DNA of 35,097 nt from Halanaerobiales bacterium (GTDB taxonomy: Bacteria; Bacillota; Halanaerobiia; B1SED10-174): assembly GCA_003551905.1 (NCBI GenBank), contig PUNT01000253.1, positions 1-35,097 of the forward strand, written 5' to 3'. Every line of letters begins with the position of its first letter. Position 1 is the stretch's first letter. Of the stretch, positions 5,911 to 18,695 are shown one piece after another. The translations under genes were made by a program, and so were the position numbers. The notes beneath the pieces were generated by a model, which did no database searches, was not told the origin of the DNA, and saw nothing but the letters and a program-made list of their open reading frames with translations.

Positions 5911-5937
5911 TGAGCCTACTTGGGAGGGAGGAAAAAA

Positions 5938-8142
5938 ATGTCTAAGATTATCTGTTCTGCTGCCATCAGGGGAGCACATAAGATAGTTGATAGAGCCGAA
6001 GTAAAATGGAAAGAAGCAATGGATAAATGGGGAGCCAAGCAGGAAGTAGGTTTTCCCAATACCGGATATTACCTGCCAATAATCTATGGTATGTTGGGTA
6101 TAGGGGTTAGCAATCTTGGAGACATGGAAAAGGTTCTAAAGAAGTGTCGTTCAATAATGCCGGAACCTGTAAGGGAAGAGGTGCATCTGCCATATTTGGC
6201 TCCAGCTCTTGATGCTGGTATGGCAACCTTATTTGCAGAAGAGCTCCTGGAGGCTATCCGGATGCTGGAAGAACCTGATTTTTATACCAAGCAGGAGGAG
6301 CCAGCAGGAGATAACATCTGGCTTGGTCCTGCTGATGACGTTACCCTGCGGCGCCGGGGTATTGAGTTTGTGGATGGCACCGCCCCAGGTTTTGCTGCTA
6401 TACTGGGGTCAGTGCCTGATGATGAAACAGCAGCTAAAATAGCCCGGGAACTGCAGGAGAAAAGCCTTTATATATTTATGGGTGGGCAGCACAATGGGAA
6501 GTGTTTTGCCCAGCAGCTGGTAAATTCAAATATCCAGATAGGTTGGCCTACCCGACTGGTTTCCTTTGGGCCGGATACTTCTGCTGCAGTCTTTGCTCTT
6601 GGTTTTGCAACCAGGGCTGCCATGGCTTTTGGAGGGGTAGAGCCAGGAAATTATCGACGTATCCTTCTTTACAATAAAGATCGGGTCTTTGCTTTTGTTC
6701 TGGCTTTTGGTACTGTAACTGATGAATGGTACGCAAATGCAGCAGGAGCCATCAATTTTGGTTTCCCGGTTATTGCTGATACTCCAATTCCGGAAGTTCT
6801 GCCTACAGGGATATGTACCTATGAGCATGTAGTCTCTAACGTCCCCTATGATGAAATAGTAAATCGGGCCGCAGAGGTAAGAGGGCTCAAGGTTACAGTT
6901 TCTGATGTGCCTGTCCCAGTTTCTTATGGTCCAGCTTTTGAAGGAGAGCGTATCCGCAAGGAAGATCTGCATGCCGAATTTGGAGGTAGTGTTAGTCAGG
7001 CTTGTGAGCTGGTAACCATGAAAGAACTGGATGATGTTGAGGATGGGAAAGTTGAAGTTATAGGCCCGGACATCGATGAACTAGAAGCAGGCAGCAGCCT
7101 GCCCCTGGGTGTTGTGGTAGAGGTGGCTGGCCGAAAAATGCAAGAAGACTTTGAACCCATCCTGGAGCGTCAGATTCATCACTTTGTCAATTATGCTGAG
7201 GGAGTAATGCATATAGGTCAGCGTGATATAGCCTGGTATAGAATTGGAACTTCAGCATATGAGCGGGGTTTGCGTATCAAGCATATAGGTGAAATACTTC
7301 ATGCCAAGCTCCATCAGGATTTTGGCACCATATTCGACAAGCTTCAGGTTAAGCTTTATACCAGGGAAGAGGATGTGAAAGAAATAGTTGCTCAAGCCAG
7401 GGGCATCTATGCGACCAGGGATGCTCGGATTGAGGGAATGACTGATGAAGATACAGATCCTTTCTATTCCTGCACCTTGTGTCAGTCCTTTGCTCCCAGT
7501 CATGTTTGCATGGTAAGTCCCGAACGAACTGGCCTTTGTGGCGCCTATAACTGGCTGGATTGCAAGGCTGCTAATCAGATCGATCCCAATGGGCCCAATC
7601 AGCCTGTGAAAAAGGGCAGGCTTATTGATGAGAAATATGGTGAATGGGAAGGAATAAACGAATTTGTCAAGAAGGCTTCCCGGGGTAAGATTGAAGGTTT
7701 TACCTTCTACAGCATCTTGGAGCGGCCCATGACAACTTGCGGTTGTTGTGAATGTGTAGCTGCAGTTCTGCCCATGTGCAATGGTTTTATGACAGTTAAT
7801 AGAGAATTTCAGGACATGACACCATGTGGTATGAAATTTACAACCCTGGCCGGCACTGTAGGAGGTGGACAGAGCACACCAGGTTTTGTTGGCCATAGCA
7901 AATATTATATCTGTCAGCGTAAGTTCATGAAGGCAGAAGACGGAATTCTCCGCCTGGTATGGATGCCCACCAGCCTGAAGGAGGAAATTAAGGATAGATT
8001 CAACAAGCGGGCAGAAGAAGTAGGGGTTCCGGACCTCCTGGACCGGATAGCCGATGAAACTGTTGGTTTAACTGAAGAAGAAATTTTACCTTTCCTGGAG
8101 GAAAAAGATCATCCTGCGTTGAAGCTGGATCCCCTGTTTTAA
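5938..8142 (+). CDS. acsB: Acetyl-CoA synthase subunit of CODH/ACS
   Basis: AcsB joins CO, a methyl group from the corrinoid protein and CoA to make acetyl-CoA. The protein is about 734 aa, the full bacterial length, with the N-terminal CODH-binding and CO-tunnel domain, a middle CoA-binding domain and the C-terminal A-cluster domain. The A-cluster ligands are C512, C515, C524 and C534 for the 4Fe-4S part and the CGC motif C601-G602-C603 for the distal nickel, each six residues after the Moorella positions. A TTG at 5920 is in frame, but GGGAGGGAGG (5922-5931) lies downstream of it and points to ATG 5938. The N-terminal domain distinguishes it from archaeal CdhC, which is shorter. CooC-type ATPase genes follow directly. 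Confidence 0.96.
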   Translation: MSKIICSAAIRGAHKIVDRAEVKWKEAMDKWGAKQEVGFPNTGYYLPIIYGMLGIGVSNLGDMEKVLKKCRSIMPEPVREEVHLPYLAPALDAGMATLFAEELLEAIRMLEEPDFYTKQEEPAGDNIWLGPADDVTLRRRGIEFVDGTAPGFAAILGSVPDDETAAKIARELQEKSLYIFMGGQHNGKCFAQQLVNSNIQIGWPTRLVSFGPDTSAAVFALGFATRAAMAFGGVEPGNYRRILLYNKDRVFAFVLAFGTVTDEWYANAAGAINFGFPVIADTPIPEVLPTGICTYEHVVSNVPYDEIVNRAAEVRGLKVTVSDVPVPVSYGPAFEGERIRKEDLHAEFGGSVSQACELVTMKELDDVEDGKVEVIGPDIDELEAGSSLPLGVVVEVAGRKMQEDFEPILERQIHHFVNYAEGVMHIGQRDIAWYRIGTSAYERGLRIKHIGEILHAKLHQDFGTIFDKLQVKLYTREEDVKEIVAQARGIYATRDARIEGMTDEDTDPFYSCTLCQSFAPSHVCMVSPERTGLCGAYNWLDCKAANQIDPNGPNQPVKKGRLIDEKYGEWEGINEFVKKASRGKIEGFTFYSILERPMTTCGCCECVAAVLPMCNGFMTVNREFQDMTPCGMKFTTLAGTVGGGQSTPGFVGHSKYYICQRKFMKAEDGILRLVWMPTSLKEEIKDRFNKRAEEVGVPDLLDRIADETVGLTEEEILPFLEEKDHPALKLDPLF

Positions 8143-8170
8143 GTTTGCAGATGATGGAAAGAAGGTGAGA

Positions 8171-8219
8171 ATATTCTACCGGCAGATAACGGAAATATTC
8201 ATGGCCGGTGGGAGAATAT
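8171..8219 (+). promoter_or_regulatory. Long hairpin masking the cooC ribosome binding site
   Basis: Bases 8171-8183 (ATATTCTACCGGC) pair with 8204-8209 and 8213-8219 to give 13 Watson-Crick pairs, with only a 3-base GGG bulge (8210-8212) and a 20-base loop. The bulge is the core of the GTGGGAG Shine-Dalgarno site, and the stem ends at the base before the cooC ATG (8220). Folding should restrict ribosome access. It may also act as an mRNA processing or stability element between acsB and cooC. The pairing is seen; the role is inferred. Confidence 0.5.
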
Positions 8220-8975
8220 ATGGCAAAAAACATTTCCATAGCTGGTAAAGGGGGCACAGGTAAGACCACATTATCAGCCCTTCTCATTAGATACCTGCTG
8301 GAGAATGGGAAAAGCCCCGTGCTGGCTGTTGATGCTGATCCCAATGCAAATCTTAACGAAGCTCTGGGATTTGCAACCCGGGGTACCGTTAGCGAGATCA
8401 TAAAACAGACTAAAGCCATTGATGGGGTTCCTCAAGGTATGACCAAGGACATCTTTATTGACTATCATTTACAGATGGCTATTAGCGAAGGTGAAGGGTT
8501 GGATCTTTTAGTTCTTGGTGGACCTGAGGGGCCTGGATGTTACTGTTTTCCCAATCAGCTTCTCAGCCATTTCATGGAGGAATTGAGCAAGAATTATCCC
8601 TACATGGTTATTGATAATGAGGCAGGCCTTGAGCACCTGAGCCGCAAGGTTACTCAGAGTGTAGATTACCTGCTAATTGTTAGCGATAGCACAATCCGGG
8701 GTGTCCGCTCAGCAGGGAGAATTGGCAATCTTGTGGAAAGCCTGGATTTAAAGGTGGGCAAAAAAGCTCTAATTCTCAATCGGAGTCATGAAGGAGTAGA
8801 TAAAAAGGCTCTGGATGAAGAGATTGAGAAAACTGGTTTACCGGTACTGGGAGTTATTCCGGAAGATGAGATGGTATTTGATTTTGATGCCAGCGGGAAA
8901 CCCCTATTTGAACTGCCTCAGGCTTCCGGGGCAGTTAAATCTGTGTTTGAAATTGGAGCAAAGCTGGCAATATAG
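8220..8975 (+). CDS. cooC: CooC-type nickel-insertion ATPase (CODH/ACS maturation)
   Basis: This P-loop ATPase of the MinD/CooC group has about 251 aa. A deviant Walker A with the signature lysine (GKGGTGKTT) occupies residues 9-17, switch-like DADPNANL is near residue 40, and the CxC motif that binds Ni or Zn at the dimer interface is C107-Y-C109. CooC proteins use ATP-driven dimerisation to help insert nickel into CODH or ACS. A GTG at 8208 is in frame, but the GTGGGAG SD at 8208-8214 fits ATG 8220. The start lies directly after a strong hairpin that contains this SD. It is the first of two tandem CooC-like genes. Which one serves the CODH C-cluster and which the ACS A-cluster cannot be told here. 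Confidence 0.9.
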   Translation: MAKNISIAGKGGTGKTTLSALLIRYLLENGKSPVLAVDADPNANLNEALGFATRGTVSEIIKQTKAIDGVPQGMTKDIFIDYHLQMAISEGEGLDLLVLGGPEGPGCYCFPNQLLSHFMEELSKNYPYMVIDNEAGLEHLSRKVTQSVDYLLIVSDSTIRGVRSAGRIGNLVESLDLKVGKKALILNRSHEGVDKKALDEEIEKTGLPVLGVIPEDEMVFDFDASGKPLFELPQASGAVKSVFEIGAKLAI

Positions 8976-8995: not shown

Positions 8996-9751
8996 GTGAA
9001 GCTGGCAATTTCAGGTAAGGGTGGTGTGGGTAAGACAACGGTTGCAGCCGGGCTTGCCCTCCTATATGCCAGCAAGGGTTACCGGGTATGGGCCATAGAT
9101 GCTGACCCGGATGCTAACCTCGGTTGGGCTCTTGGCTATTCAGATGAAGAGCTGGCTAAACAGATTCCACTGGTAAATCTCAAGGAGGAGATTGAGGCCA
9201 GGATTGGCAGAGGGCCTTTTTTTAGCATCAATCCCCGGGTAGATGACCTGCTGGAGAAAAACAGTCTTGAGAAGGAAAATATGAACTACATCAAAATGGG
9301 TGGTGTAAAGGAAGGAGGTTCCTCCTGCTACTGTCCGGAAAATGCCTTGCTCCGGGCGGTTCTTTCCAATCTCCTTTTTGACCGGCAGGACGTTGTTATT
9401 ATGGATATGGCTGCAGGGATTGAACATCTGACAAGGGGAACAGCTAGAGGTGTTGACGCCATGTTCATAGTTGTAGAGCCGGGCAGGACCAGCATTAATA
9501 CTGCTAGAACAATTATTGAGCTGGCAAAGGACCTGGGGCTAGAGAAAGTGGGCATCTTAGGAAATAAAGTTAGATCCCCCCGGGAAAAAGAGCTGATCGA
9601 GAGCTCTTTACAAGAGATTGTATGGGGATATTTACCCTACGCTGAGGAAATCCAGGAGATGGGGTTTAAACCTGTGGCCTGTTATCCCAAAACTTTTTTA
9701 GAAGTTCTTGGGGAAATTTCTCAGGAATGGGATTTAGCTGCAAAGGGGTAA
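8996..9751 (+). CDS. Second CooC/AcsF-type maturation ATPase
   Basis: This 251-aa paralogue of the preceding gene starts at GTG 8996, after AAAGGTGG. It keeps the deviant Walker A (GKGGVGKTT, residues 7-15), DADPDANLGWALG, and a CxC pair at C111-Y-C113 in the sequence SSCYCPEN. The sequence around the CxC and the longer insert before it differ clearly from the upstream copy, so this is an old paralogue, not a recent duplication. The family includes Moorella AcsF and Carboxydothermus CooC proteins that insert nickel into ACS or CODH. A sensible inference is one ATPase per nickel enzyme. It lies 20 bases after cooC and 35 before acsC, inside the operon. Confidence 0.85.
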   Translation: MKLAISGKGGVGKTTVAAGLALLYASKGYRVWAIDADPDANLGWALGYSDEELAKQIPLVNLKEEIEARIGRGPFFSINPRVDDLLEKNSLEKENMNYIKMGGVKEGGSSCYCPENALLRAVLSNLLFDRQDVVIMDMAAGIEHLTRGTARGVDAMFIVVEPGRTSINTARTIIELAKDLGLEKVGILGNKVRSPREKELIESSLQEIVWGYLPYAEEIQEMGFKPVACYPKTFLEVLGEISQEWDLAAKG

Positions 9752-12973: not shown

Positions 12974-13621
12974 TTGCCTAAAGAAGATCCTGTACATTTT
13001 CTGCGGTTGAGCAAGAAAGATCTCAGTGAATCCCTTGATGAATTGCGAGCAGAATTAAAAGACCGTTCGCCGGCAGACATTGCCGGTAAAACTGGTGCAG
13101 AATTTAAAAAAGAGGATGATGGAGAAGAATCTCTTAACCTGTCCTGCTTTTTTCAGGATTATACTGTTTCTCTGCCAGATTTCACAGTAAGGGATAGTAG
13201 AGGACAGGAAGGGGATTTGTTGATCACCGGCTTTATCATCTATTACCTCTATACAGCTGATGGAACGCAGGAAGTAAATCAATGGGTTTCACTCCGGGAA
13301 ATTCCTGGTGGGACTTTTTATGCTGATGCATTCAAAGGCTATACCGGGGATGTCCTGGCAGACTCTTTCAGAGGTGATGTGGAAGGTCTGGAGAAGGCCT
13401 GCCGGGGAATGGGGGGCGTTGAAATGGATCTGGGAGATCTGGGTTTTACATTTCAGTTGCTTCCCCGGGTGAAACTCTGCCTGGTTTACTGGCAAGAGGA
13501 TGAAGAGTTTCCTGCCTCAGCCCGGATTCTATTTGAAGCCAGTGCAGCTAATTACCTTCCCTGTGATGTGCTGGCAGTTTTAGGTGCTCAGCTGGTTCGC
13601 CGGATCTGTAACTATAATTAA
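12974..13621 (+). CDS. DUF3786-like protein in the CODH/ACS operon
   Basis: This 215-aa cytoplasmic protein starts at TTG 12974 with GGGAGG (12961-12966) as SD. The sequence resembles DUF3786 (PF12654) as I remember it: a central GFIIYYLYTADG segment, a Gly-rich YADAFKGYTGD region, and a C-terminal stretch with QEDEEFPASARILF, then LPCDVLAVLGAQL. It has only three or four scattered Cys and no cofactor motif I can name. Members of this family often lie near corrinoid or Wood-Ljungdahl genes, but no biochemical role is known to me. Its place between acsE and acsV suggests work on the corrinoid protein or its activation; that is inference. A terminator-like hairpin follows it. Confidence 0.7.
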   Translation: MPKEDPVHFLRLSKKDLSESLDELRAELKDRSPADIAGKTGAEFKKEDDGEESLNLSCFFQDYTVSLPDFTVRDSRGQEGDLLITGFIIYYLYTADGTQEVNQWVSLREIPGGTFYADAFKGYTGDVLADSFRGDVEGLEKACRGMGGVEMDLGDLGFTFQLLPRVKLCLVYWQEDEEFPASARILFEASAANYLPCDVLAVLGAQLVRRICNYN

Positions 13622-16670: not shown

Positions 16671-16689
16671 AATATAAAATTGGATAATC

Positions 16690-16932
16690 TAAAGGCAATG
16701 AAAGGGAAGAGTAGGATTTTGGAACTGGCAGAGAAAAAAGGCCTAAGGCTGGAAGCCTTTTTCAGAGAAAAAATCTGAAAACCCCCCTGGAGCTCTTTGC
16801 TGAAAGCTGACATAGTGTGTAAGCAAAGTCGGAACCCTACCGTTATTTGCATAAGGGAGTCAGTTTAAAGCTGGCTAAGTAGAGTGGAACCGCGGAAGAA
16901 CCTTTCGTCTCTATGGACGAAGGGTTTTTTTA
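16690..16932 (+). promoter_or_regulatory. Threonine T-box riboswitch in front of thrS
   Basis: The leader carries the T-box sequence AGAGTGGAACCGCGG (16881-16895), which pairs with the uncharged tRNA acceptor end. It ends in an intrinsic terminator: stem 16901-16909 with 16916-16924, then T7. The base of Stem I appears to pair GTAGG (16711-16715) with CCTAC (16836-16840). The threonine codon ACC (16834-16836) lies at this boundary and is the likely specifier. The downstream gene is thrS. Uncharged tRNA-Thr should stabilise the antiterminator and switch on transcription. The boundaries are approximate. Confidence 0.9.
16901..16931 (+). terminator. Intrinsic terminator of the T-box
   Basis: A 9-bp stem (CCTTTCGTC with GACGAAGGG, one G-U pair), six-base loop TCTATG and run of seven T. 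Its 5' arm lies just after the T-box sequence, so it competes with the antiterminator. Confidence 0.9.
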
Positions 16933-16964: not shown

Positions 16965-18695
16965 ATGGAAAATGAAGAGCTCAAAAGATACTGGCATACT
17001 GCTGCCCATGTTATGGCTCATGCGGTGAAAAGGCTATTTCCAGAGGCACGTCTGGGGATAGGACCGGCAACGGAGGAAGGTTTTTATTACGATTTTGATA
17101 TGCAGGAGAGTTTTTCACCAGAAGACCTGGAAAGAATTGAAAAAGAGATGGAAAAAATTATAGCTGAAGATTTAAAGTTGGAGAAGGTGGAAGCTGACAG
17201 GGAACAGGCTCTTAATATTCTGAGAGAGCAACAGGAAGATTATAAAATTGAGCTGGTAGAAGAGATGGCAGATGCTGAAGAGATAACTTTTTACCGGCAG
17301 GGAGAGTTTATTGATTTATGCCGGGGTCCGCACATGAACTCAACAGGTCAGATTAAGGCGTTTAAACTCCTGAATATTGCCGGTGCTTACTGGCGGGGTG
17401 ATGAGAAAAATAAGATGCTACAGCGTATCTATGGCATAGCTTTTCCCAAAAAAAAGGATTTGCAAGAGTTCCTACATCGCCGGGAAGAAGCAAAAAAGCG
17501 TGATCACAGGAAATTGGGAAAAGAACTGGATCTTTTCAGCATGCACGAGGAAGGTCCTGGCTTTCCTTTCCTGCATGCAAAGGGAGTTATTGTGTGGAAT
17601 GAGCTGGTTGATTACTGGCGGCAACTCCACAGGGAGAGGGGCTATGAAGAAATCAGCACCCCAATAGTTTTAAATGAAGCACTGTGGCATCGGTCCGGAC
17701 ACTGGGAAAATTACCGGGAAAACATGTACTTCACTGAAATTGATGGAAATAAATATGCTATAAGGCCTATGAACTGTCCTGGTGGCCTTCTAATATATAA
17801 ATCCAACCAGCACAGTTACCGGGAATTCCCTATCCGGGTGGCAGAAATGGGGTTGGTGCACAGACATGAACTGTCGGGAGTGCTGCACGGGCTTCTTCGG
17901 GTCCGCTCTTTCCACATAGACGATGCTCATATCTACATGCTTCCTGAGCAAATTGCCCAGGAAGTCCTGGGAGTAATATCTATGGCAGAAGAAATTTATG
18001 ACACCTTTGGTTTGAAGTACAGAATGGAATTAAGTACCCGGCCAGAAAAATATATGGGTTCCATTGAGGACTGGGATAGGGCGGAAAAAGCTTTGGCGGA
18101 TGCTCTAAATAAAAAAGGAGCAGATTATCAGATAAATGAAGGTGATGGAGCATTTTATGGTCCTAAGATAGACTTTCACGTTCAAGATTGTCTGGGGCGC
18201 AGCTGGCAGCTGGGGACCATTCAGCTAGATTTTCAGATGCCTCAGCGTTTTGAACTCACCTATGTGGGTCCAGATGGTGAAGAACACAGACCGGTAATGC
18301 TGCATAGGGCACTTTTTGGTGCGTTAGAAAGATTCCTGGGAATCATTATTGAGCATTTTGCTGGAGCGTTTCCCACCTGGCTGGCACCTGTACAGGTTTG
18401 CTTTATTCCCATAGGTGAAAATCATATTCAATATGCCCGAAAGCTTTCAGGAGAACTGGAAGCTCTTGGTGTAAGATCAGAAGTAGATGATCGAGATGAA
18501 AAAGTAGGGTACAAAATCCGACAGGCCCAGAATCAAAAAATTCCTTATATGATAGCCATAGGCGATAGAGAAATTGAAAGTGGCAAGATAGCTTTACGCC
18601 ACCGCAAAGAAGGAGAACTTGGGGCCTGGGAATTCCAGGACTTTAAACAACGTATCCTGGAGGAAATAAGGAGCAGAAAATGTGAGGATGTTTAA
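16965..18695 (+). CDS. thrS: Threonyl-tRNA synthetase lacking the TGS domain
   Basis: This 576-aa class II synthetase charges tRNA-Thr. The protein starts directly in the editing domain: HxxxH is H11 and H15, and the second editing pair is C119 and H123. The catalytic core follows with zinc ligands C271, H322 and H447 and motif-2/3 segments (RPMNCPGG, HIDDAHIY, VMLHRALFG). The anticodon-binding domain is about 475-576. Compared with E. coli ThrRS the offset is 62 residues, so the whole N-terminal TGS (N1) domain is missing. The upstream bases are the T-box terminator, so no hidden extension exists; ATG 16965 has a GGGGGG SD. All catalytic and editing residues are kept, so the enzyme should be active. 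It is regulated by the T-box. Confidence 0.95.
   Translation: MENEELKRYWHTAAHVMAHAVKRLFPEARLGIGPATEEGFYYDFDMQESFSPEDLERIEKEMEKIIAEDLKLEKVEADREQALNILREQQEDYKIELVEEMADAEEITFYRQGEFIDLCRGPHMNSTGQIKAFKLLNIAGAYWRGDEKNKMLQRIYGIAFPKKKDLQEFLHRREEAKKRDHRKLGKELDLFSMHEEGPGFPFLHAKGVIVWNELVDYWRQLHRERGYEEISTPIVLNEALWHRSGHWENYRENMYFTEIDGNKYAIRPMNCPGGLLIYKSNQHSYREFPIRVAEMGLVHRHELSGVLHGLLRVRSFHIDDAHIYMLPEQIAQEVLGVISMAEEIYDTFGLKYRMELSTRPEKYMGSIEDWDRAEKALADALNKKGADYQINEGDGAFYGPKIDFHVQDCLGRSWQLGTIQLDFQMPQRFELTYVGPDGEEHRPVMLHRALFGALERFLGIIIEHFAGAFPTWLAPVQVCFIPIGENHIQYARKLSGELEALGVRSEVDDRDEKVGYKIRQAQNQKIPYMIAIGDREIESGKIALRHRKEGELGAWEFQDFKQRILEEIRSRKCEDV

Follow-up and report, generated by a model that had tools for sequence, protein, structure and literature searches.

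An apparently lineage-specific stem-loop at the acsB-cooC junction of a Halanaerobiales bacterium, possibly part of a split ribosome-binding site

The window, as we call the whole 35,097-nucleotide stretch analysed here, carries a CODH/ACS cluster in which acsB is followed by a cooC-type gene (Table 1). The longest acsB frame begins at TTG 5920, with the ATG at 5938 as the called start and the stop codon at 8140-8142. This frame (5920-8142) scores 1096.9 bits against NCBIfam NF040764, where the cut-off is 800. Translation of cooC from ATG 8220 starts MAKNISIAGKGGTGKTT, and the CooC of a relative, G004, reads MAKHISIAGKGGTGKTT by eye, which supports the start at 8220. The gene is called cooC on the strength of its operon and of the label given in the first-pass annotation, since the library matches are only to the wider MinD/ParA/NifH class and lie below NCBIfam cut-offs.

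Directly 3' of cooC lies a second MinD/ParA-class ATPase gene (8996-9751, + strand), whose product is about 30% identical to that of cooC, and a similar ATPase frame is likewise found directly 3' of cooC in G004. Also within the cluster, a DUF3786 protein (PF12654, 6.6e-49) is encoded at 12974-13621 (+). This gene stands between a methyltransferase gene and an AcsV-like gene, the latter scoring 602.9 against the AcsV model (cut-off 800).

Table 1. Features of the acsB-cooC junction, in window coordinates.
Feature	Position	Strand	Basis or remark
acsB (acetyl-CoA synthase, alpha/beta type)	5938..8142	+	ATG 5938 called by script
acsB-cooC spacer, 77 nt	8143..8219	+	one full-length copy in genome
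Putative duplication copy 1, partial direct, GCAGATGATGGAAA...GGT..GAGAATAT	8147..8174	+	repeat alignment
Upstream SD-like segment GAAAGAAGGTGA, just 5' of stem	8157..8168	+	duplex energy, 10-mer in common with G004
Perfect 10-nt palindrome AGAATATTCT, likely source of the outer 7 pairs	8168..8177	+	sequence
Alternative hairpin, outer pairs 8169-8175 with 8194-8200	8169..8200	+	predicted, -8.9 kcal/mol
Hairpin 5' arm ATATTCTACCGGC	8171..8183	+	sequence, folding
Putative duplication copy 2, GCAGATAACGGAAA...GGTGGGAGAATAT	8182..8219	+	repeat alignment
Hairpin loop, 20 nt, with an out-of-frame ATG beginning at 8201	8184..8203	+	sequence
Hairpin 3' arm with local SD GGGAG (8210-8214)	8204..8219	+	folding
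cooC-type P-loop ATPase	8220..8975	+	library matches to MinD/ParA/NifH class

The first-pass annotation had described 13 perfect pairs with a GGG bulge and a 20-base loop, and these are present in the letters. Bases 8171-8183 can pair with GCCGGT (8204-8209) and AGAATAT (8213-8219) in 13 Watson-Crick pairs, with GGG 8210-8212 bulged. The gap of one base between stem and ATG is in fact 0 nt, the stem ending at 8219. In terms of predicted folding, the 13-pair form is not the preferred one. ViennaRNA favours a bulge-free register of 10 bp (8174-8183/8204-8213), with two G-U pairs and the GGG paired to 8175-8177, at -15.4 kcal/mol versus -13.0 for the 13-bp form. In a 171-nt context, the helix probability is 0.70 for the 10-bp register versus 0.017 for the full 13 bp at 37 °C, and 0.40 versus 0.04 at 55 °C.

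Either form is predicted to cover the local Shine-Dalgarno sequence (SD), and the claimed burial of this site is supported by computation. In context at 37 °C the GGG is paired with probabilities of 0.89-0.96 (mean 0.93), the SD bases being paired in the dominant predicted fold. The mean pairing over positions -16 to -4 is 0.76, a value reached by 12 of 181 called genes, cooC included. In the model the cooC ATG falls in a separate, weak hairpin of about -3.1 kcal/mol, where it is paired with probability 0.95. Furthermore, the alternative hairpin of Table 1 is exclusive of the main stem and, in the model, would leave the local SD open.

These pairing values fit a plain occlusion of the SD, where the stem hides GGGAG and works as a constant damper on CooC, keeping it low in relation to AcsB. 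Ribosomes would wait on the upstream purine-rich stretch and enter as the stem opens. A smaller need for the maturation ATPase than for the enzyme is plausible and would suit such a damper. An unaided stem of -13 to -15.4 kcal/mol is expected to cut initiation very strongly, which counts against this reading, and an AcsB ribosome terminating at 8142 should stop short of the stem, 28 bases on. We consider plain occlusion somewhat unlikely.

As for the origin of the stem, the direct repeats listed in Table 1 appear to be a duplication that created it. The first copy runs into the palindrome AGAATATTCT. When part of a palindrome is copied, the new copy can pair with the old one, and the outer 7 pairs of the hairpin would arise in this way. 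At the chosen split, a point picked after the repeats had been seen, 1 of 5000 shuffles aligned as well, as did 11 of 5758 random genomic 80-mers; none of 2000 shuffles did so when the best split was allowed. The duplication leaves the inner 6 GC-rich pairs (ACCGGC/GCCGGT) unexplained. The out-of-frame ATG at the loop end (8201) opens a 15-codon frame, 8201-8248 (+), that spans the beginning of cooC. By eye, the ATGGCC at this site looks like the cooC start of G004, and it may be a relic of the duplication.

In terms of folding energy, which the first-pass annotation had proposed as a check, the outcome is mixed. The 49-nt element has z = -3.5 and was equalled by 1 of 200 shuffles; the 77-nt spacer as a whole reaches only z = -1.9 and was equalled by 11 of 200. 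When the spacer was shuffled 20,000 times with its dinucleotides kept, a hairpin of the same class appeared once, and shuffles of the whole window (n=60) had a mean of 0.58. In the genome of origin, 232 kb of readable bases hold 15 hairpins of this class, including an overlapping pair, and the class is thus not rare. Four of the 20 sampled genome stretches (L127, L128, L131, L132; 10,107 bases) are all N and were left out of the genomic k-mer controls; the hairpin and gene counts are unaffected, N neither pairing nor making frames.

Three other sites have a hairpin with a start-like codon 0-6 nt downstream and at least 80 open codons. One is inside an apparent ABC-transporter gene (read by eye), another precedes a possible 95-codon frame, and the last, with two overlapping hairpins, is 6 nt before an 82-codon frame. 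Strong stems of 9-13 pairs and -17 to -22 kcal/mol also stand just before starts called by a simple script in the same genome, at L124 17636, L124 11325 and L115 4697 (-).

The 181 called genes are ORFs of at least 150 aa whose starts were assigned with a simple score for SD and codons; the score itself favours a strong SD, and some of these starts will be wrong. In this set, 12 genes, cooC included, have at least 9 uninterrupted pairs in a stem whose end lies 0-11 nt upstream of the start, and the 60 nt before cooC rank 29th by folding energy. A stem at the start is therefore not exceptional in this genome, and the exact abutment of the hairpin on the supported cooC ATG is unusual but explainable. 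The first-pass annotation took such precision to suggest a switch; a partial duplication of a perfect palindrome is a plainer source, and stems of this kind recur at the 12 starts just counted.

Next, we looked at relatives. AcsB matches were found in 15 of 61 genomes, the genome of origin included, and further AcsB relatives were taken as named loci (best 80 of 351). Among these, cooC lies directly 3' of acsB only in the window and in G004, which belongs to the same family and another genus (AcsB 84% and CooC 73% identity). The G004 spacer has 36 nt, around half of that in the window, with GAAAGAAGGT 6 nt before the ATG. The hairpin is absent from this junction, where 169 of 200 shuffles fold as well as the region itself (z +0.98). 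The first-pass annotation had named a lack of conserved arms as refuting its proposal, and the arms are indeed not kept in the sole relative found with the junction, which at n=1 is thin evidence.

CooC-like matches were also found 3.1-3.9 kb downstream of acsB in L020, L021, L084, L087 and L094 (34% identity), and near the upstream edge of the locus in L072, L081, L087 and L095. The flanks scanned for CooC were up to 4 kb for the named loci and about 1.5 kb for the 61-genome set, and some contigs end soon after acsB; distant or cut-off cooC copies fall outside these flanks. Starting from CooC, 86 of 398 genomes matched, and loci were taken from 30, of which 28 (L135-L162) were new. The upstream regions were folded in 45 rows, where L100 is the window and L005 and L101 are one gene. 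The window region is 7th of the 45 by folding energy, and no structure common to these upstream regions was seen by eye.

The same data can be read as a neutral by-product, that is, a hairpin made by the duplication that has little or no effect and whose pairing is incidental. The outer 7 pairs would follow from duplicating the palindrome, the stem is missing from G004, and both the comparable stems at other starts and the energy ranks (29/181 and 7th of 45) agree with this. It leaves the inner 6 GC-rich pairs without a source, and the single spacer shuffle in 20,000 with such a hairpin speaks against it. On the whole we find this improbable, and place it after plain occlusion.

A number of known element types were considered for the junction and rejected. 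Of the Rfam families, only a T-box reaches its gathering score in the window, at a distance of 8 kb from the hairpin, and a known cis-regulatory RNA or riboswitch family was rejected on this basis. The T-box leader itself, at 16689-16915 (+), scores 132.6 bits for a gathering score of 93 and lies 5' of a 576-aa frame at 16965. A conserved cis-regulatory RNA was rejected on the absence of the hairpin in G004 (n=1). No intrinsic terminator is present in 7900-8400, the stem being followed by ATGGCAAAAAA, and no sigma-70-like promoter was found in the same range. An RNA thermometer was discarded, as the GGG is largely paired even at 55 °C (0.74-0.90).

A REP- or MITE-like repeated element was likewise rejected, with one full-length copy in the genome of origin. 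Two further weak spacer matches of 20-23 nt (E 0.3 and 0.56) occur there. In the 60 other genomes a single match of 29 nt was found; it covers spacer bases 2-30 and includes just the first two bases of the stem, and the exact hairpin pattern had 0 matches in viral_contigs.

The first-pass annotation had proposed a translational switch, a loop binding a ligand or protein, or an RNA-processing element, and none of these gains support from the searches: there is no Rfam match, promoter, terminator-like site or second full copy at the junction. A regulated element of this kind, responding to ligand, protein, temperature or processing, would be in line with the two mutually exclusive hairpins (-8.9 and -15.4 kcal/mol). 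The gap of 6.5 kcal/mol between them is large, the GGG stays paired at 55 °C as given above, and the stem is not conserved in G004.

Leaders of cooC1 in Acetobacterium can matter, according to two papers (PMC8407422, PMC6239172). In A. woodii, ribosomes build up at the cooC1 start region under autotrophic growth (PMC8407422), and the A. bakii cooC1 5'-UTR gave a reporter mRNA level in E. coli that varied with temperature (PMC6239172). As described there, the two species resemble the present case in having a leader before a cooC gene of the CODH/ACS cluster, one examined for its structure or its ribosome occupancy (PMC8407422, PMC6239172). Both papers treat 5'-UTRs and not an acsB-cooC junction (PMC8407422, PMC6239172). 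The A. bakii cluster begins with cooC1, whose 5'-UTR has 120 nt (PMC6239172), whereas the leader here is the acsB-cooC spacer. We regard regulation of this type as very unlikely.

A variant with two states is the least probable reading, and one we hold to be highly doubtful. Here the duplicated ribosome-binding region would have turned into a leader whose part transcribed first folds into the hairpin 8169-8175/8194-8200. This hairpin would leave the local SD open and then rearrange to the stable stem, which closes that SD, initiation passing to the upstream SD, so that the leader would act as a kinetic, ligand-free timer of CooC output per transcript.

A further SD-like segment stands just 5' of the stem. 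Its anti-SD duplex energy (8155-8170) is -10.9 kcal/mol versus -7.4 for the local SD, both values assuming a canonical 16S 3' end. The 16S rRNA gene was not found in the genome's own assembly, listed as 93.64% complete, with RF00177; the same search was positive in 9 of 14 control genomes, and the absence is not firm. An SD of -10.9 or stronger is usual in this genome, being present in 93 of 181 called genes, and one as weak as the local SD of cooC, or weaker, is found in 25 of 181. The value of -10.9 was reached by 165 of 5000 random genomic 28-mers, and equally strong segments at -77 to -50, which occur in 13 of 178 genes, are not very rare.

Furthermore, the 10-mer GAAAGAAGGT, at 8157-8166 in the window, is common to the window and the G004 spacer; no other sampled gene with 80 nt or more of upstream sequence has a 10-mer in common with that spacer. 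An older SD thus appears to survive here, just 5' of the stem, which separates it from the ATG. In the model, part of the upstream SD is paired as well (mean probability 0.59 over 8159-8168).

We therefore propose, with a probability of roughly 0.36, that a lineage-specific stem lies between an older SD and the cooC ATG and acts as a constitutive split ribosome-binding site. A partial duplication of the ribosome-binding region would have produced the lineage-specific stem-loop, which would now separate the older and stronger SD (8157-8168) from the ATG and cover the weaker GGGAG. Subunits (30S) bound at the upstream SD would reach the ATG past the folded stem, in a constitutive and not a switched manner, and cooC would be translated at a fixed, probably modest rate. 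Use of the upstream SD, and any effect on the level of CooC, is what we infer from the layout and the energies.

In line with a split site, the strong SD immediately precedes a stem whose end lies close to the start, directly at ATG 8220 for the 13-bp form (8171-8219) and 6 nt before it for the preferred 10-bp form. With the stem looped out, the distance from AAGG to the ATG is 5 nt in the 13-bp register and a long 14 nt in the preferred 10-bp register, for an expectation near 5-11 nt. A crude energy balance, which leaves out steric cost, gives -0.8 to +0.2 kcal/mol for using the upstream SD with the stem kept, versus +4.4 for melting the stem to reach the local SD. Several points speak against a split site: the size of the stem-loop, whose steric cost the balance omits, the long spacing in the preferred register, the partial pairing of the upstream SD, the weak hairpin at the ATG, the equally strong segments upstream of other genes, the assumed 16S 3' end and the comparison with a single relative. 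The strength of the upstream SD, this balance and the precedent in phage T4 together rank the split site first, then plain occlusion, the neutral by-product and the regulated element.

Should the junction not be a split site, the case is one for caution, as duplication of a short palindrome can yield a perfect-looking hairpin next to a start codon, and stems ending at or close to the start are frequent enough in this genome (12 of 181 called starts) that no switch is implied.

Lastly, in terms of known systems, the closest arrangement to the proposed split site is that of T4 genes 25 and 38, where a review describes a stem between SD and AUG that can help initiation (PMC3014915). As in cooC, a strong SD is parted from the AUG by a stem-loop (PMC3014915); the SD-AUG spacing is 22-27 nt, of which the stem removes 16-17 nt (PMC3014915). 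Gene 25 also resembles cooC in lying at an intercistronic junction and in an arrangement limited to close relatives (PMC3014915). The cooC stem-loop differs in being far larger (49 nt) than the 16-17 nt removed in genes 25 and 38 and in having a usable SD in its 3' arm as well. Split-site function was tested in genes 25 and 38 (PMC3014915), whereas for cooC it is deduced.

In other T4 genes, namely e, soc, 49 and I-TevI, an RNA helix takes up the SD, the start codon or both, according to the same review (PMC3014915); at cooC the SD is in the 3' arm. For gene e, a late promoter within the leader yields an open transcript (PMC3014915), unlike the cooC region, where no sigma-70-like site was found. 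If the split-site reading is right, cooC would be a cellular instance of an arrangement described in that review for phage T4 genes (PMC3014915), with its origin by duplication still visible.
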